A DNA stretch of 64,000 nucleotides from Chryseobacterium sp. GTDB lineage: Bacteria; Bacteroidota; Bacteroidia; Flavobacteriales; Weeksellaceae. The translations under genes and the position numbers were made by a program. The stretch lies in the NCBI RefSeq assembly GCF_008014695.1, contig NZ_VOXE01000001.1:682001-746000 (forward strand), written 5' to 3'. Positions 54,377 through 64,000 of the stretch are shown one piece after another. Numbering within the stretch: the stretch's first letter is position 1; the number at the start of each line of letters is the position of its first letter. A model generated the notes under the pieces. That model searched no databases and had not been told where the DNA came from. It saw only the letters and a list, made by a program, of their open reading frames with translations.

Positions 54377-55144
54377 ATGAAAATAGGGCTAATAGGTTTC
54401 GGTAAGGCCGGTAAGGCAGTTGCCAATGTGATTTTACGAAGCGATCAACATTCGTTAGAGTGGGTATTGCGGAACAGTGCCGCAAATACTTCGACCGCTA
54501 AAGATTTTTTAGAGGTTGATAGCCCGGACCCCGCTGAAATTGTTTCTTTAGCACATCAAACTGTACGTCAATTATTAAACGAGCGTCCTGTGGATGCCAT
54601 CATCGACTTTTCCGGCGCAGAAGGTATTTATCAATATGGAAAGGAAGCTGCTGTCAGAAAAATAACCATCATTTCAGCGATTTCCCATTACGGGGAAGCG
54701 GAAAAGAAATTTTTAGAAGAATTATCCTTAGAAACCGCAGTGTTCTGGTCCCCCAATATTACATTGGGCGTTAATTATCTTTTATTTGCCGCCTCCCTTC
54801 TTAAAAACATTGCACCGGATGTTGATATTGAAATAAGTGAAGAGCATTTTAAAGCAAAGGCGGGGGTATCGGGAACGGCAGTAAAGATTGCAGAGTCGTT
54901 GGATGTAGAAGCGGACAGCATCAACAGCGTAAGAGCCGGCGGAATTGTAGGCAGACATGAAGTTATTTTCGGTTTTCCGTATCAAACGGTGAGGCTGGTT
55001 CATGAGTCGATCTCACGTGAAGCCTTCGGAAGCGGAGCATTATTTGTCGCTGAAAACCTCGTCAATAAACCTACAGGATTTTACAATTTTGAAGACCTTT
55101 TACGTCCCTATTTTTTCAGTACCTCAAAAGAGGAATCATCATAA
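54377..55144 (+). CDS. DapB-like dihydrodipicolinate reductase paralog
   Basis: 255 residues. Rossmann start MKIGLIGFGKAGKAVANVIL and the DapB-type motifs IDFSGAEGIYQYG, ITLGVNYLLFAA and a region SEEHFKAKAGVSGTAVKIAESL that corresponds to E. coli DapB HHRHKVDAPSGTALK. The first catalytic His and the Lys are replaced (HH..K becomes EH..A by my alignment), so activity may differ. The true DapB would carry the HH..K pair. It lies upstream of cphB on the same strand; function unproven. Confidence 0.72.
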   Translation: MKIGLIGFGKAGKAVANVILRSDQHSLEWVLRNSAANTSTAKDFLEVDSPDPAEIVSLAHQTVRQLLNERPVDAIIDFSGAEGIYQYGKEAAVRKITIISAISHYGEAEKKFLEELSLETAVFWSPNITLGVNYLLFAASLLKNIAPDVDIEISEEHFKAKAGVSGTAVKIAESLDVEADSINSVRAGGIVGRHEVIFGFPYQTVRLVHESISREAFGSGALFVAENLVNKPTGFYNFEDLLRPYFFSTSKEESS

Positions 55145-55237
55145 AATAATCCGGTCTTCGCGGTGGCATTTTAATTAAGAAAGTTGGTGTTTAAACAAAT
55201 TTTCTGAATATTATTATGCTATCCATTATAAATTTAA

Positions 55238-55498
55238 TATATTTGATTTTTCTTCATACTAAATGATTTGTTAAAATAAGGCTGCTCTTTGGGCGGCCTT
55301 ATTTGTGGGCGTCATGGCCGCCAAGGGTATACATTAATTTTATTTAACTGCACTAATTGGCATTTTCTTTGTTGGGTCTGAAAAGTCTCCAAGTTCCCTA
55401 GAACACGTATTACCATCCTGCCTGCCAGCAGGCTTTTTCTTGGTCGGTAATATGATGCGTTCATTGTGATCATCCTTAACAGTTTAAAATTAAAAAAT
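55238..55498 (+). promoter_or_regulatory. Candidate promoter and structured leader of cphB
   Basis: TATATTTG (55238-55245, TAnnTTTG) would start a transcript with a leader of about 250 bases. The leader contains an imperfect stem AATAAGGCTGC/GCGGCCTTATT (55275-55303) and a strong hairpin GCCTGC-CA-GCAGGC followed by TTTTT (55420-55438), 60 bases before the cphB ATG. The last could attenuate transcription (inference). The gap 55145-55498 has no gene. Confidence 0.4.
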
Positions 55499-56347
55499 AT
55501 GAAAGGCAAATTACTGATTATTGGCGGTGCCGAGGATAAAGGTGAAAAGGATCCGAAAAAGGGTTTTTCAGATGAAATTATTTTACGCAGGTTCATCTGC
55601 GAATCACGGTTAAAGGAAAAATCCCGAATCGAGATTGTTACCAGCGCGTCCGAGATCCCGGAGAAAATGGGTGAGGTATATGTGAAAGCTTTCGGAAAAA
55701 TCGGGGCTACGAATACCGGCGTCATGATTATCGAATCCCGGGAAGAAGCCGAACTCAAAAAGAACCTGGACCGGCTCCAAAAAGCAGACGCTGTTTTTTT
55801 TACGGGAGGCACACAGCTCAGACTCACTTCCATCTTTGGAGGAACCGAATTTTATAACTTACTTCTGAAAAAACTGGAAGATCCCCACTTTATCTATGCG
55901 GGAACATCGGCCGGTGCAGCAGCGGCTTCCGAGAGCATGATGAAGGACGGCAGCAGCGACGAAGCGGCAGACAAAGGGGAAGTTAGCACGACCACCGGAT
56001 TCGGATTGGTGAAGAATATTATTTTCGATACGCACTTCATAGCGCGCGGCAGAATCGGGCGGCTTTTCGAAATTGTGGTGAGCAATCCCACCGTTTTGGG
56101 CGTTGGCCTGGAAGAAAATACCGCTTTACTGATCTACCGGAACAAGATGGAAGCGGTTGGTCCCGGAATGGCCATCCTGCTGGACGGCAGGAGCATTACG
56201 GAAAGCAACCTGCTTGACGTTATTAAAGGCGCCCCCCTTTCGTTTTCGAATATGACGATGCACCTCATGAGCCAGACCGATGTTTTCAACCTGACCACGA
56301 TGAAACTCAAGATCCTCAATCCCCCTGAAGAAGAGCAAACTGATTAA
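55499..56347 (+). CDS. cphB: Cyanophycinase
   Basis: 282 residues from ATG 55499 (KGKLLIIGGAEDKGEKDPKKGF); 11 upstream in-frame codons are dispensable. Serine-peptidase S51 family: nucleophile Ser132 in AGTSAGAAAAS, and the conserved GLGLVKN-type segment TGFGLVKNIIFDTHFIARGRIGRLFEIV. It is an intracellular-type exopeptidase that releases beta-Asp-Arg dipeptides from cyanophycin. No signal peptide. The partner synthetase cphA is 1.7 kb downstream; no isoaspartyl dipeptidase gene is seen in the cluster. Confidence 0.9.
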   Translation: MKGKLLIIGGAEDKGEKDPKKGFSDEIILRRFICESRLKEKSRIEIVTSASEIPEKMGEVYVKAFGKIGATNTGVMIIESREEAELKKNLDRLQKADAVFFTGGTQLRLTSIFGGTEFYNLLLKKLEDPHFIYAGTSAGAAAASESMMKDGSSDEAADKGEVSTTTGFGLVKNIIFDTHFIARGRIGRLFEIVVSNPTVLGVGLEENTALLIYRNKMEAVGPGMAILLDGRSITESNLLDVIKGAPLSFSNMTMHLMSQTDVFNLTTMKLKILNPPEEEQTD

Positions 56348-56663
56348 ACCATGCCATAGACGGAGTGTAAGGCAGCTCTTGGAAGGACATGGGTAAGTTA
56401 AAAATTTAAAATCTCGAACATACCGTTAACATCAATTATCCAGCATCATCTATATGCTATGTATCAGATCATAAAAATGGCCCTTGATCAATAATATGGC
56501 ATAATTTCTGTGTACAAGATTCTGCAAATTCATGATGGGTGAATTATGATGATGATGCAGGTCTTTTGATTGTAAATCACCAAAACAGATCTTCAATTAT
56601 TATTTAAAAAAATCCCAACCATTACCGGTAACGGTAAAAACAATACCTTAAAAAAGAATTATT
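56348..56663. other. Intergenic gap with palindrome
   Basis: About 315 bases before the heme-oxygenase-like gene. Near the 3' end, ACCATTACCGGTAACGGT (56618-56635) is an imperfect 18-bp palindrome around TTACCGGTAA, a possible regulator site. No gene or terminator was seen. Confidence 0.45.
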
Positions 56664-57332
56664 ATGAACGCAGTTACTGAAGCGGAAATCACTCTGGCAT
56701 CTGTTAAAAAAAGCTACGAGGATTTTATTCTCAAAGAAGATCATCCGTGTATTATGGCCAAAACTTTATTCAAGATGGAGCTGTACAATCTTAACGTATA
56801 CCGGGATATCGATGAGACCGAAAGTCTGGCTCAGCTCGTTGAGGACGTTAAGCGGTATGTCGCACAATATGATTTTGAAGGAAATACTTTTGAATCCTTT
56901 CTGGCCGTATTCCCGAATAATCACTACCGCGATGAGGAAAGCTTTGAAACCGCCCTGTGGAAGGCACTTCAAACGATCCATGATCTTGATGAATCCGCGT
57001 GGGACCCTACTGTGAGTGACGATCCGGAAGATCCGCAATTCAGCTTCAGTGTTGGCGGGAAAGCATTTTATATCGTAGGTTTACATCCTGAAAGTTCCAG
57101 AATGGCGCGCCGGGCACCTTTTACAACCCTTGTATTCAACCTGCACCATCAGTTTGAAAAGCTGCGTGAAATGGGTACCTACCACGCCGTAAGAAATACG
57201 ATCCGGAAAAATGACCAGGAACTTCAGGGCAGCATCAATCCTGTACTGCGGGACCACGGAACTGATACCGAAACCAAACAGTACAGCGGCCGTCAGGTAG
57301 AAGAAGGCTGGAAATGTCCGTTCCACAAATAA
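56664..57332 (+). CDS. YqcI/YcgG (GntA-type) heme-dependent N-oxygenase-like protein
   Basis: 222 residues. The conserved YqcI/YcgG core HPCIMAKTLFKMELYN, ESFLAVFPNNHYRDEESFETALWKALQ, and HPESSRMARRAPFTTLVFNLHHQFEKLREMG then ND..LQGSINPVL..HG and the C-terminal GWKCPFHK. One member of this family (GntA) is a heme-dependent N-hydroxylase in guanitoxin biosynthesis, acting on a guanidino group; others are uncharacterised. Here it sits between cphB and the DUF1989 gene, so a guanidine- or arginine-type substrate is an attractive but unproven idea. Confidence 0.78.
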   Translation: MNAVTEAEITLASVKKSYEDFILKEDHPCIMAKTLFKMELYNLNVYRDIDETESLAQLVEDVKRYVAQYDFEGNTFESFLAVFPNNHYRDEESFETALWKALQTIHDLDESAWDPTVSDDPEDPQFSFSVGGKAFYIVGLHPESSRMARRAPFTTLVFNLHHQFEKLREMGTYHAVRNTIRKNDQELQGSINPVLRDHGTDTETKQYSGRQVEEGWKCPFHK

Positions 57333-57354
57333 AAAAACAAACCAAACTCAAATT

Positions 57355-57972
57355 ATGACCGAAACCATTACCATTGAAAAACAGAGCGGCAAAGCCTTTT
57401 ATCTGAAAAAAGGCGATTTATTAACCGTAACCGATCCGCTTGGCATGCAGGTGAGCGATATGGTCCTTTTTAATGCTGCCGACTTTGGAGAAAAAATATC
57501 TTCCGGAAAATCACTGGATTTTGAAGAATCTATCCTGTTATCTGCGGGAAACTTTTTGTGGAGCAACCGTTCGCACAAAATGATGGAGATCGTGGAAGAC
57601 ACCAACGGCAGAAACGATTTCCTTCTCGCCCCCTGCAGCAAAGAAACGTTTGAGATCATGTACAGCCATACCGGTTACCATCCCAGCTGCCTGGATAATC
57701 TGTCTAAGAATCTTGCTCCGATGGGCATCAAAGAAGATGATATCCCTACCGCCTTTAATATTTTCATGAATGTGCAGTTTGATGCACAGGGCAAAATCTC
57801 TGTACTGCCCCCTACGTCGGTGGCCGGAGATTACGTCCGCTTCAGGGCAGAGATGGACCTTTTGGTATGCCTGACGGCGTGTTCGGCGGAAGACAGCAAT
57901 GGCGGAACCTTCAAACCCATCCAGTATCAGATCACTCCTGCAGCGGTAAGCGGAACTGATGACTTAAGCTGA
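57355..57972 (+). CDS. DUF1989 (urea carboxylase-associated) protein
   Basis: 205 residues. Family features: GDLLTVTDPLGMQVSDMVLFN, SHTGYHPSCLDNLS and LLVCLTACSAEDSNGGTFKPIQYQI, with conserved Cys/His/Asp residues. Two members of DUF1989 form carboxyguanidine deiminase (CgdAB) in guanidine utilisation; this single protein may not need a partner, or has another substrate. It begins 22 bases after the YqcI/YcgG gene and is followed by cphA 70 bases later, so likely cotranscribed. The metal or substrate chemistry cannot be read with certainty. Confidence 0.82.
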   Translation: MTETITIEKQSGKAFYLKKGDLLTVTDPLGMQVSDMVLFNAADFGEKISSGKSLDFEESILLSAGNFLWSNRSHKMMEIVEDTNGRNDFLLAPCSKETFEIMYSHTGYHPSCLDNLSKNLAPMGIKEDDIPTAFNIFMNVQFDAQGKISVLPPTSVAGDYVRFRAEMDLLVCLTACSAEDSNGGTFKPIQYQITPAAVSGTDDLS

Positions 57973-58042
57973 TATCAGTCACTTAAACTCAAAGCCGGCT
58001 TTCCAAACCCTTCTTAAAAAAACTTATACCACTTACTTTTAT

Positions 58043-60604
58043 ATGATTTTCGACGATATCAGAATTATGCGGGGCCCCAATATGTGGTCCGGCAAACACC
58101 AGGTTCTGGCTGTTAAATATGAACCCTCGCTGTATCCAGAAACTGGAAACGCTCAGTACTACGGCGTAACGGAATATTTCCGGATCCACCACGGAATCGA
58201 ACATTCGGATACGGACGTGAGCAGATCGCTGTTCCGCTATACCATCCGTCTGGCGGCGCTTCTTCAGGACCGTAATTTTCATCATGAGATCATCGACCTC
58301 CCCGGAGACCGTTCGTACGGCATTGTGGAATACGGGACCGAGGAAGGCGGAACCGCAGCGCTGCAAACGGCAGGGCAAATCATCAGTGCACTCATTACAG
58401 GGGTTGAACCGGCCTCTTTTTTAAATGCCTGCGCTTACATCGCCAGCCTTAACCGCAAATTCGGAGAAGGGCCGAGTACCTCCATTATCACTCAGGCTGC
58501 CCGGAGGCGCAATATTCCCGTATCCAAAGGGCCGGCGGGATATCTTATCCTGGGCCAGGGGAAACATCAGCAGCGCATCAGCGCGGCCATGTCGCCAGAT
58601 ACCTCCTCCATTGCCGTTAATATCGCGTGCAATAAAGCCGCTACGAAAGAATTTCTGGAAAGCCAGTACCTGCCGGTGCCTCCCGGTGCTCACACCGACC
58701 AGGTCTCGGACCTGGAATCGATTGCTGAAAACTTAGGTTTTCCTCTGGTCACAAAACCGCTTACAGGCAACCAGGGCCGGAATGTGACGTGCAGCATCTC
58801 CAGTATAGAAGAACTGACCGAGGGTTTCCTCTATGCACAGGAAATTTCGGAAAAAGTGATCATCGAAAGGGAAATCGCCGGCGCCGATTACCGGTTGATT
58901 ATTGTAGGCCAGCAAATGATCGCTGCCTCCAAACGTTCACCAGCCTCTGTTACAGGGGACGGTTCGTCCTCGGTTGCGGAACTTGTGCATCAGGAAAATG
59001 AAAATGAGCTCAGAGGAGAAGGGCATGAAAACAGGCTGACCAAGATTCATCTGGATGCCGCTACCGATGCGGTTCTGGAAAAACAGGGCCTGTCCAGAAT
59101 TTCCGTACCGGCTGAGGGACAGCGTGTTGTTTTGAGACAGACGGCCAATTTAAGTACAGGAGGTACCGCAGAAGATGTTACTGATCTGGTGCATCCTTAC
59201 AATAAAATGCTTGCGGAAAAAGCGGCGCAGATCATCGGCCTGGATATTTGTGGGATTGACATCATCGCTCCTGATATTTCCGTTCCACTGTCAGAAAACG
59301 AAGGGGCCATCATCGAAGTCAATGCGGCGCCCGGATTGCGCATGCACCAATATCCCTTGACCGGAACGCCGAGAGAAACAGGTGACCCAATTGTTGATCT
59401 GATGTTTAAGAAGGATCAGAACGGACGCATCCCTATTGTCGCCATTACGGGAACCAACGGCAAGACCACCACCACGCGCTTAATGGCTCATGTGGCGGAT
59501 TCAGCAGGCAGGACGATAGGATTCAGCTCGACGGACGGCATCTACATCGGCGGCCATAAAATTTACGGCGGCGACTGTTCGGGACCGCAAAGCGCACGCA
59601 CCATTTTACAGAATCCTACCATCGATTTTGCTGTTCTGGAAAGTGCAAGAGGCGGAATAATCCGATCCGGACTGGGCTTTGACCAGTGTGATATCGCCAT
59701 CGTGACCAATGTGGCGGCAGATCATTTGGGATTAAAGGATATTCATACAGTAGAAGACCTGGCATTTGTAAAATCGGTGGTTCCGCGCGCGGTGCATCAG
59801 GATGGATGGGCTATTTTAAATGCAGGAGACGAACTTGCCTATGCCATGAAGAACCAGCTAAAGTGCAATGTTGCCGTATTTTCTTCGGATGACCGGCATG
59901 AAAATTTCGTGAAGCATATGGAAGTCGGCGGCACGGCCGTTTACACCGATCCGGAGCAGGACATTTACATCAGCCACCGCCAGGAAAAGATCTACATCTG
60001 CAATGCCGCAGAAGTTCCGATCACGCGGAAGGGCAAAGCAGGGTTTATGATTGAAAACCTCCTTCCTGTTGTTCTGGCTTCGTATCTGTCAGGTTTTCCA
60101 CTTGAAGGTACGGTAGCGGCACTGAAGAATTTTATTCCGTCCGGGGATACCACTCCCGGGCGAATCAACGAACTGGAAATCAACGGAGTGAACGTTATTG
60201 TGGACTATGCCCATAATCCGCACGGCTTAAAAGCACTGGCGGGCTACCTGAAAAAAATTGAGGGATATAAGCTGGGAATCATCACCGGAACGGGCGACCG
60301 GCGCGAGGAAGATATCATCGAATTCGGAAGAATTGCGGCCTCGATGTACGATGAAATCATCATCCGGTTTGACCGTGACCTCCGCGGAAGAACGGAAGAC
60401 TCCATTGTGGAACTTTTAACGCGCGGCATCCATGAGGTCGATCCAGAAAAGGAATATAACATTATACCCGATACCCAGACTGCGATTCACCATGCGGTAG
60501 AACACGCGCCGAAAGGCAGCTATGTAGTGGTGTGTGCCGACAACGCTACGTATACTTTGGGATTGACGAGGGCTGTAGCCGAACAGTTTCAGAATCCGGC
60601 TTAG
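58043..60604 (+). CDS. cphA: Cyanophycin synthetase
   Basis: 853 residues, standard CphA length. Opens MRGPNMW-like (IRIMRGPNMWSGKHQVLAV). N-terminal domain (about 1-160), ATP-grasp domain (about 160-470) with LGFPLVTKPLTGNQGRNVT and DICGIDIIAPDISVPLSENEGAIIEVNAAPGLRMHQ, then Mur ligase-like domain with P-loop TGTNGKTTTTRL and STDGIYIGG, RGGIIRSGLGFDQCDIAIVTNVAADHLGL and C-terminal VDYAHNPHGLKAL. It adds Asp and Arg alternately to make multi-L-arginyl-poly-L-aspartate. It ends the run dapB-like-cphB-YqcI/YcgG-DUF1989-cphA. Confidence 0.94.
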   Translation: MIFDDIRIMRGPNMWSGKHQVLAVKYEPSLYPETGNAQYYGVTEYFRIHHGIEHSDTDVSRSLFRYTIRLAALLQDRNFHHEIIDLPGDRSYGIVEYGTEEGGTAALQTAGQIISALITGVEPASFLNACAYIASLNRKFGEGPSTSIITQAARRRNIPVSKGPAGYLILGQGKHQQRISAAMSPDTSSIAVNIACNKAATKEFLESQYLPVPPGAHTDQVSDLESIAENLGFPLVTKPLTGNQGRNVTCSISSIEELTEGFLYAQEISEKVIIEREIAGADYRLIIVGQQMIAASKRSPASVTGDGSSSVAELVHQENENELRGEGHENRLTKIHLDAATDAVLEKQGLSRISVPAEGQRVVLRQTANLSTGGTAEDVTDLVHPYNKMLAEKAAQIIGLDICGIDIIAPDISVPLSENEGAIIEVNAAPGLRMHQYPLTGTPRETGDPIVDLMFKKDQNGRIPIVAITGTNGKTTTTRLMAHVADSAGRTIGFSSTDGIYIGGHKIYGGDCSGPQSARTILQNPTIDFAVLESARGGIIRSGLGFDQCDIAIVTNVAADHLGLKDIHTVEDLAFVKSVVPRAVHQDGWAILNAGDELAYAMKNQLKCNVAVFSSDDRHENFVKHMEVGGTAVYTDPEQDIYISHRQEKIYICNAAEVPITRKGKAGFMIENLLPVVLASYLSGFPLEGTVAALKNFIPSGDTTPGRINELEINGVNVIVDYAHNPHGLKALAGYLKKIEGYKLGIITGTGDRREEDIIEFGRIAASMYDEIIIRFDRDLRGRTEDSIVELLTRGIHEVDPEKEYNIIPDTQTAIHHAVEHAPKGSYVVVCADNATYTLGLTRAVAEQFQNPA

Positions 60605-60761
60605 TGTTGGGTGAACGATTTCGATTTTGGATGATGAATTAAAACGCGGAGATAAAGGCGGAGTGTGACTAGAAAGAGCACACTGCCGCTGTGGTCAGTG
60701 CAGGTTTGGTTTTGCTGGGTTTTCCTATTGCCTGCTGCGGTGGAGATCTGAGCTGGCGGTT

Positions 60762-61660
60762 TTATCTGGGCAAAAAATCGTAAAATATTTTCCTCATGAC
60801 GGAAGTTCCGCCTGTGGATTCGGTGCTGAAATATGAAAGCCCGTTCGGCCCTTCGGTCTGCAGCAGCAGACTGCGACCGGGCTGCAAAGGGCGCGGATAC
60901 AGATACCAGTTCGTACCAGCATCGAATGAAATATACACAGAGCCGTAGACTCCCGGGCTGATCAGGTAAATCCGGCCGCCCTGTTCCAGAATATAACATC
61001 CATCTCCCGAAACCTCATCTTTTATCTCCTGTTTTAATTCCAGACTTCCGGCGCCGTTTCTGAAGATCATTTTGCGGCCGTTGATCAGCCTAAAATTTAC
61101 GAATTCCCTGACGGTGTCAGCAGTTTGCCCCATTGCCGGGACAGGACGCCGGTATATTTTTTCCTCGACTTTAAATTTCCACTCCCCTTTACTCCTGACC
61201 AGTAAGGGCTGGAAATAACGGGTGGTATTTACCGTATAATGATCATCATAGGTCCAGCTGCCGAGAGACACCGTGTCGTTCTTTGCAGAGAAATAATAAT
61301 TGTTGTAATTGCTGTTATAATACAGGTCATCGGGAGTCTTTAACGAATCGGTCACCTTTCCGTTCCGCAGCAGATAATACGTTCCCTGTATGATTTGAGT
61401 CGCTTTTTTCTCCTGCTTTAATTCGTTTCTTGCATATCCGAGTGAGTAGTTCCGGTCCAAGAATTCGAATTCGGAAAACCCATATCCAGCAAACATTTTC
61501 CCGGTCTTTGCGGTCCTTTTCCAGGTCTTTCCTTCATCCCGGGACCGGTACATCTGTATCTGGGAGCGGAAAGTATTCTGGCAGTCGGAAAGCTGGATAT
61601 TGAAATGTTTTTTACTGATACCTGAAGATACAGCATTCCATTGAACCTGTCGCTGTACAA
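60762..61660 (-). pseudogene. Asp-box (BNR) secreted-type protein, start damaged
   Basis: The C-terminal 264-residue frame (ATG 61551-61553) includes an Asp-box SRDEGKTW and a second SFDAGTNWYLYP, typical of BNR/sialidase-like beta propellers. In the same frame the protein continues upstream (SKKHFNIQLSDCQNTFRSQIQ) without a start until a stop at 61662-61664. A different frame at 61600-61690 reads protein-like (IRGFKLYSDRFNGMLYLQ). No signal peptide exists in either. A frameshift or 5' deletion is likely. Confidence 0.6.
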
Positions 61661-62949: not shown

Positions 62950-64000
62950 TTATTTTTGATCCAGATATTTCCTGAGGTCAGAGATCCTTTTGATATGCAG
63001 GTCATCAGCCTGTTTCCTGCGCATCATCAAAGCGTAGGAATTATTGAATCCAAGGGGTTTCAACCATTTGATTCCATACTGTTTCAGGAATTCTGCATTT
63101 ACATAACCGTAAGTAGTTCCGGCGCTTTGTGTTACCGCTGAGACGGTTTTCGGGTCAGGCTGCAGTAAAACCAGAAGTCCGGTTCCGGTATATTCAGGAT
63201 AAAAATCGATGGCATCATTCATCAGGGCATCAAAACAGATCTTCGTGCCGCCCAAGCCTGTTTTTGTTTCGACCCGGTAGCCGGTGTAGCCTTCGATAAG
63301 CATTTTATATATCTCCGCAAGGATGTACTGTTCCCCGAAGATCTTTGACCCAATTCTCACGGTTCCGGCGTTTCCGTTCTGCGGATCCCTGTATAATTTA
63401 GTGGTCACTAGGAAATCCTTTGCAATTCTATGGGGCGTCTGATGGAGATGATCTGATCTGTAATTGAGGTCTGTCATCAGCGAATCACTGAATTTCCCGG
63501 CCAGGAGATCGAGCGTTTTTTCGAGGTCAGGAAATTTCTGCAGGGTCTTTGTCTTTATGATGGGTGCTGCATAATAAGGAGGAAATATTTTTCTGTCATC
63601 TTCCAGCACATACAAATCAAAGGCCCTGATCCTGCCGTCGGTAGAATAGCCGCTGATCAGATCCAGGTCGCCTTCAAAAGCTGCTTTGTACATGACCGCA
63701 TCATTCACCACCTCCGGATGCACGTTTAGGCCATAAACAGAACGAAGGCCGAGATCTCCGTCCTGTCTTCCCATAAATTCCGGGGTAAAACCGGCTTTGA
63801 GTTTATTCTCGGATCCGGTCTTGAACCAATACCCCGCACCGATCACAACCAGTATCACGGGAAAAATGACCCATAATCTCCGGAGCTGCTGATATCTGAT
63901 CTTTTGAAAAACAGCGATAAGTTTATCCAGCAACACCGCCAATAACGCGGCCGGGATTGCTCCCGCCAGAATCATATTGGTATTGTTGAGTGAGATTCCG
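62950..64000 (-). CDS. Osmoprotectant ABC permease/substrate-binding fusion, partial
   Basis: The frame continues past the right edge; the first visible residues GISLNNTNMILAGAIPAALLAVLLDKLIAVFQ are the end of an OpuC-type permease, followed at about residue 75 by a membrane segment and an OpuC-type substrate-binding domain (GSENKLKAGFTPEFMGRQDGDLGLRSVYGLNV; GTVRIGSKIFGEQYILAEIYKMLIEGYTGYRV; DFYPEYTGTG; MMRRKQADDLHIKRISDLRKYL). Such fusions import glycine betaine, choline or carnitine. The N-terminus and the ATPase gene lie outside the window. Confidence 0.88.
   Translation of the reverse strand, partial: GISLNNTNMILAGAIPAALLAVLLDKLIAVFQKIRYQQLRRLWVIFPVILVVIGAGYWFKTGSENKLKAGFTPEFMGRQDGDLGLRSVYGLNVHPEVVNDAVMYKAAFEGDLDLISGYSTDGRIRAFDLYVLEDDRKIFPPYYAAPIIKTKTLQKFPDLEKTLDLLAGKFSDSLMTDLNYRSDHLHQTPHRIAKDFLVTTKLYRDPQNGNAGTVRIGSKIFGEQYILAEIYKMLIEGYTGYRVETKTGLGGTKICFDALMNDAIDFYPEYTGTGLLVLLQPDPKTVSAVTQSAGTTYGYVNAEFLKQYGIKWLKPLGFNNSYALMMRRKQADDLHIKRISDLRKYLDQK

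Follow-up and report, generated by a model that had tools for sequence, protein, structure and literature searches.

A mobile gntA-like/DUF1989 gene pair, a candidate guanidine N-oxygenation module, lies beside cyanophycin genes in Chryseobacterium sp.

Introduction

Why should two genes from families with guanidino chemistry lie between a cyanophycinase gene and a cyanophycin synthetase gene? This arrangement occurs in a stretch of 64,000 nucleotides from Chryseobacterium sp. (contig NZ_VOXE01000001.1, positions 682,001 to 746,000), the whole of which is referred to below as the window. Here cphB, a gntA-like gene of the YqcI/YcgG family, a DUF1989 gene and cphA occupy positions 55499-60604. 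An earlier note on this DNA had proposed that the two middle genes perform an arginine- or guanidine-linked step tied to turnover of the cyanophycin polymer. We find that the gntA-like and DUF1989 genes form a mobile two-gene module, which occurs in three or more bacterial phyla and is often plasmid-borne, and that any link to cyanophycin is no more than local.

The gntA-like and DUF1989 genes form a mobile pair

Three samples were compared: 36 genomes of the genus, which is Kaistella in the genome collection used and includes C. salipaludis and Chryseobacterium sp. SNU WT5; 395 genomes drawn evenly from the phylum; and the best 80 of 165 named-genome loci from a gntA search (L091-L170). Within the genus, the families PF08892 (gntA-like) and PF09347 (DUF1989) occur in the identical 11 of 36 genomes, at 12 places, and the two genes are always adjacent, forming a unit in 11 of 11 pair genomes. 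The window's own genome (G000) has a single match to PF09347. PF08892 was found in 9 genomes of the phylum sample and PF09347 in 10; in all nine the two genes are immediate neighbours. The remaining PF09347 genome has just a tandem DUF1989, 27% identical to the window protein. Among the named loci, an open DUF1989 frame lies downstream of gntA on the same strand in 78 of 80. Of the remaining two, L101 has a DUF1989 gene truncated by the contig end, and L155 is a second gntA copy in a species that carries the pair at its other gntA locus (L118).

The DUF1989 gene follows gntA directly in 42 of these 80 loci. Elsewhere the intervening sequence holds a PaiB-like flavin-binding gene alone (25/80), MgtC (5/80), PaiB with a split LigD (4/80), a catalase (1/80) or PaiB with a LigD_N-like gene (1/80), where the LigD_N and LigD polymerase pieces were named by eye and the other families by scan. 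In total, 30 of the 80 loci encode a PaiB-like protein binding flavin mononucleotide (FMN; PF04299) in this position, which might donate electrons or carry out an additional step.

The pair is also seen on plasmids. A gntA match covering more than 80% of the query was found in 17 plasmid records, 14 of which carry the pair, with hosts in Sphingomonadales, Skermanella, Comamonadaceae and Deinococcus and also in Bacteroidota. One of the 14, from Hymenobacter volaticus, has a frameshifted DUF1989 gene (L189 6626-7206) that is absent from the listed annotation. When plasmids were searched with DUF1989 (508 records in total), the pair-linked proteins took the first 14 places, with identities of 48-84%, and the other 26 matches listed were 33-37% identical; five of these lower matches were inspected, and no annotated gntA was found within 4 kb of them. 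A lone gntA-like gene on a Rahnella plasmid stands in a row with SDR, 2Fe-2S, LysE-type and MOSC genes (L187 5941-11226), which looks like a separate pathway.

On a tree of the canonical CphA, which covers 30 of the 36 genus genomes with 10 pair rows, the distribution of the pair requires at least five changes. Shuffled pair labels gave a mean of 8.5 changes, and 5 of 500 shuffles were as low as observed. These values fit several gains of the pair, or a single gain followed by several losses. In a tree of DUF1989 proteins, the 27 module proteins group almost alone, but we give this tree no weight because its outer branches are very long and an archaeal sequence (L202) falls inside the module group.

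Gene layout and predicted enzymes

Genes were called from open reading frames and family profile scans, with bit scores read against family cut-offs. The features of the locus are as follows.

55499..56347, + strand: cphB, cyanophycinase (peptidase S51); TIGR02069, 213.6 bits, cut-off 126.6
56497..56512, + strand: TGGCAT-N5-CTGTG, a degenerate sigma-54-like site found by reading the sequence, some 150 bp upstream of the start codon of the gntA-like gene
56664..57332, + strand: gntA-like gene, YqcI/YcgG heme-thiolate guanidine N-oxygenase family; PF08892 and NF041366; candidate heme ligand Cys29
57355..57972, + strand: DUF1989 metalloprotein gene, constant partner of the gntA-like gene; PF09347, 187.9 bits
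58043..60604, + strand: cphA, divergent subtype, cyanophycin synthetase-like; TIGR02068, 934.9 bits, cut-off 850

The earlier description of four genes in one direction is borne out, as all lie on the + strand and the family scans agree. The mechanical reading frame of cphB opens upstream of the listed start, at GTG 55466. Gaps of 22 bp (gntA-DUF1989) and 70 bp (DUF1989-cphA) mean that these three genes could be one transcript, and the 316-bp gap between cphB and gntA sets cphB apart from them. None of the four proteins matched the PADLOC anti-phage defence models at E 0.001. An OpuAC-domain protein is encoded near the end of the window (62950-63975).

The gntA-like protein matches PF08892 with 204.8 bits (cut-off 27) and the GntA equivalog model NF041366 with 297.6 bits (cut-off 145). 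All six other gntA-like proteins scanned also pass NF041366, namely three pair members, a lone copy from Christiangramia, and the Rahnella and Streptomyces proteins that have no DUF1989 partner, so this model does not separate functions. The protein retains a conserved cysteine as putative heme ligand and has a predicted AglA-like sandwich fold, although it is only 18% identical to AglA in a structural alignment. From family and fold, it is a candidate thiolate-heme guanidine N-hydroxylase. The heme-dependent guanidine N-oxygenases of this family, AglA, ChmN, GntA and DcsA, belong to natural-product pathways in the published accounts consulted; the window gene differs from them in its pairing with DUF1989, in a module that often lies amid stress-type genes. 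A second, degraded gntA copy was considered at G000:C2:463739 (E 3.4e-4), but tblastn gave no confirmation, and the match is probably due to chance.

The DUF1989 protein has 205 amino acids and a single Pfam domain. In the trimethylamine N-oxide demethylase Tdm, which has a DUF1989 domain, the zinc cysteines C263, C279 and C343 align with C94, C112 and C176 of the window protein, and these residues are invariant. The proposed iron histidine H276 and D198 of Tdm align with H109 and D35, although the published work on Tdm considers D198 unlikely to act as a bridge. Tdm carries a C-terminal GcvT domain that the window protein lacks, and the latter scores 81 bits on the Tdm model against a cut-off of 1100. 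Both middle genes come from families with guanidino chemistry (PF08892 and PF09347), as the earlier note had said, and guanidino chemistry of the pair is plausible.

Neighbouring genes and upstream sequence

Seven families were scanned for as stress-type neighbours, a label applied from general knowledge: DUF421, SDR, catalase, MgtC, DUF892, DUF2383 and LigD. Within 4 kb of gntA in the named loci we see DUF421 in 49/80, SemiSWEET in 33/80, SDR in 21/80, and a long catalase and MgtC in 10/80 each. At least one of the seven families lies within 4 kb in 64 of the 80 loci (40 if DUF421 is dropped), compared to 16 of 80 at a distance of 4-10 kb. Similar genes adjoin the pair on plasmids, with DUF421/YetF and a cation:proton antiporter on a Sphingobium plasmid and a catalase-family peroxidase on a Comamonadaceae plasmid. 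The neighbours identified in the genus are LigD (L062), DUF892 (L064), and DUF892 with catalase 4-6 kb off (L058, L060); DUF892 does not track the pair, being present in 33 of 36 genomes. A second LigD_N gene is found in 7 of the 11 pair genomes and in none of the 25 others, and the Chryseobacterium sp. SNU WT5 plasmid holds the pair, LigD and cphA together.

Two other kinds of neighbour were seen. The gene glf (UDP-galactopyranose mutase) lies near the pair with glycosyltransferases (L181 10041-11192, L211 8935-10086, L058 6513-7628), a theme common to two Comamonas plasmids and Kaistella. G029 has two copies of the pair, one of them close to a gene for a BCCT-type betaine/choline transporter (L064 6186-8384).

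Upstream of gntA, sites matching a strict sigma-54-like pattern (TGGYAY-N5-TTGYW) occur at 5 of the 12 places in the genus. Across 92 upstream stretches there are 10 such sites, all in Kaistella or Chryseobacterium and three of them repeats of a genome already counted under another locus id, where a simple letter shuffle of all 92 gives an expectation of 0.02. The window's own genome has 4 matches to a tight sigma-54 pattern and 8 to the pattern read backwards, so the pattern alone is no sign of function. Likewise, the three strong PF00158 activators of this genome show little by themselves, because PF00158 also matches in 14 of 14 control genomes. The sole strict match in the window lies at 55358, 108 bp before the GTG at 55466 that opens the mechanical cphB reading frame. 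Scans of 55100-60900 for sigma-70 promoters and terminators gave chance-level results only. The words common to the sequence upstream of gntA in the 92 loci are mostly A/T-rich, in a stretch that is partly coding.

A proposed two-enzyme pathway

The analysis shows that the two genes are constantly paired, that their products have the predicted folds and conserved residues described above, that the pair is spread over several phyla, and that stress-type genes often adjoin it in other genomes; the two reactions, their order and the physiological role proposed here are inferred. In the first step, the YqcI/YcgG enzyme would N-hydroxylate the guanidino group of free arginine or of a small arginine-derived molecule, as family and fold suggest, with electrons presumably supplied by general cellular reductases. 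In the second, the DUF1989 enzyme would act on the resulting N-hydroxyguanidine, a proposal that draws on its metal site and constant pairing; the chemistry would most likely be deimination or C-N cleavage at the metal centre. The module would be part of a stress-associated accessory gene set, and the cyanophycin genes of the window would be a local neighbour, at most supplying arginine in this lineage. We give this reading of a self-contained mobile module, with guanidine N-oxygenation followed by a DUF1989 step in a stress-associated set, about an even chance of being right.

Several observations weigh against it. AglA reportedly takes an arginine conjugate and hardly uses free arginine. The DUF1989 literature ties these proteins to at least two different reactions, and so the second step could differ from that proposed. 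Three of the 17 plasmid gntA genes (two from Streptomyces and one from Rahnella) have no adjoining DUF1989, and therefore step one can occur without step two. The stress-type setting is itself uneven: we identified none of the seven next to the pair in the window, and in the genus we identified them near only 4 of the 12 pairs, in scans that did not take in every neighbour. The neighbour count in the named loci sets near against far within the same loci and not against a genome-wide control, and in 18 of the 80 at least one flank falls short of about 10 kb. As for regulation, the sigma-54-like site of the window is degenerate and matches neither the strict nor the relaxed pattern, and in Flavobacterium psychrophilum the sigma-54 promoters are reported to respond most strongly on blood agar and to osmotic pressure only in some degree (PMC9723704).

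Do the cyanophycin genes belong to the module?

Alternatively, the pair could act on cyanophycin or on its breakdown product beta-Asp-Arg, with the window CphA as a dedicated partner. As a general rule this does not hold at genus, phylum or named-locus scale. A canonical cphA is present in all 36 genus genomes (with cphB adjoining in 26 of 30 loci examined), 25 of which have no pair. In the phylum sample cphA occurs in 46 of 395 genomes, 40 of which lack the pair; three of the nine pair genomes lack cphA, and in the five that have both besides G000, some 200 kb or more separates cphA from the pair. Among the 80 named loci, compared over stretches reaching up to 10 kb on either side, cph genes accompany the pair in just one. 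It is true that cphA is commoner among phylum pair genomes (6/9) than among the others (40/386), but this excess is confounded by kinship, because cphA is present in all nine genomes sampled from the family to which the window belongs.

The proposed dedicated partner, the window CphA, is not the main copy of its genome: the canonical cphA lies about 480 kb away (G000:C1:257955, 1268 bits). The window protein carries GTNGKTTTTR, which we take to be the Mur-ligase P-loop motif, and is 82% identical to a copy in G027, 62% to one in G025 and 40-44% to the other CphA copies compared. As a divergent subtype, judged by sequence, it may differ in substrate from enzymes that make the Asp-Arg polymer. 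Extra cphA genes above the family cut-off are confined to pair-bearing genomes (8/11, compared to 0/25; 8 of 36 overall). The window type is found in G000, G025 and G027 (62-82% identical to each other), in each case no more than 4 kb from the pair. A shorter type in G015, G020, G021 and G033 (58-79% identical; 41-44% to the window type) is not near the pair, and neither is the stop-interrupted extra cphA of G024, which was left out of the type comparison. Across the genus, CphA falls into three or more types that share 40-49% identity with one another (window 58043-60604; L024, L062, L066, L068-L071). In G000 and G027, gntA, DUF1989 and cphA run in the same direction with short gaps. The only plasmid match above 60% to the window CphA is on the pair-bearing plasmid of Chryseobacterium sp. 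SNU WT5, one of the three window-type genomes. The preference of AglA for an arginine conjugate would also suit this explanation.

Against these points, the second LigD_N gene, which has no arginine link, is as strictly confined to pair genomes as the extra cphA, and in G025 a LigD gene separates cphA from the pair, with cphA on the opposite strand to LigD. We read the extra cphA, the second LigD_N and the pair as accessory cargo inherited together, and shared cargo on a mobile island explains the window-type CphA association as well as a shared pathway does. Nor is the pair a plain insertion into a cphB-cphA unit, as had been supposed: in four relatives with an extra cphA (L067, L068, L070, L071), a cphB of the window kind (64-69% identical to the window cphB) directly follows cphA. 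Clustering of cphA with cyanophycinase is usual (81% of 658 genomes with both; PMC10206079). The window has both genes above their cut-offs, but with a divergent CphA and the gntA-DUF1989 pair in between. In short, proximity of pair and window-type CphA stands, while the four-family neighbourhood is not general, and we consider a cyanophycin-specific function unlikely.

Other readings of the pair

Assimilation or detoxification of guanidine, as a shortcut to carboxyguanidine deiminase, is similarly improbable. Guanidine would be a small substrate for an N-hydroxylase of such a fold, and the subunits of carboxyguanidine deiminase are members of DUF1989. CgdAB, the known enzyme, shares PF09347 with the window protein but has two subunits, whereas the window, like the genome as a whole, has one DUF1989 gene. 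This protein also falls far below the cut-offs of the subunit models UAAP1 and UAAP2 (115 against 285 bits and 84 against 206), and the recurrent neighbours identified are not nitrogen-assimilation genes.

The pair might instead be a two-protein counterpart of nitric oxide synthase (NOS), in which the heme protein would make N-hydroxyarginine and the DUF1989 protein would convert it to citrulline or ornithine and a reactive nitrogen species that signals stress or protects against it. In favour of this are the chemistry of the families and a weak structural echo. Profile comparison of the gntA-like family with seven NOS sequences found no similarity, nor did that of DUF1989 with NOS, and a relationship is not supported on this basis; PF02898 (nitric oxide synthase) has no match in G000. 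We regard such a counterpart as quite improbable, and hold the same low expectation of a widespread system that oxidises arginine and, under stress, gives off a reactive nitrogen species or some other signal. That the gene is a true gntA in a locus making a guanitoxin-like natural product, as its NCBI name implies, is most improbable of all: the NF041366 match is shared by every family member scanned, the aminotransferase encoded close by belongs to the PatB-type lyases (423.6 bits, cut-off 340; GntC 131, cut-off 415), and no other guanitoxin genes were found among the eight window proteins scanned, the rest of the genome not having been searched for them.

Significance

Both enzyme families are already known, and we consider their combination as a mobile module the better finding. 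No description of the gntA-like/DUF1989 pairing was found in the titles and abstract openings of open-licence literature. The name guanitoxin GntA is given to 14 of the 17 nearly full plasmid matches, 11 of which have an adjoining DUF1989, and the NCBIfam GntA equivalog model in fact names a broad family. If the proposed pathway is true, a name taken from a toxin pathway is misleading and would be corrected. Were the pair instead to prove a counterpart of NOS, a functional analogue of that enzyme, built from other parts, would have been hidden under the guanitoxin GntA name. If the module does work by guanidine N-oxygenation followed by a DUF1989 step, guanidine N-oxygenation would extend beyond natural products and would also be an ordinary physiological step in many bacteria.

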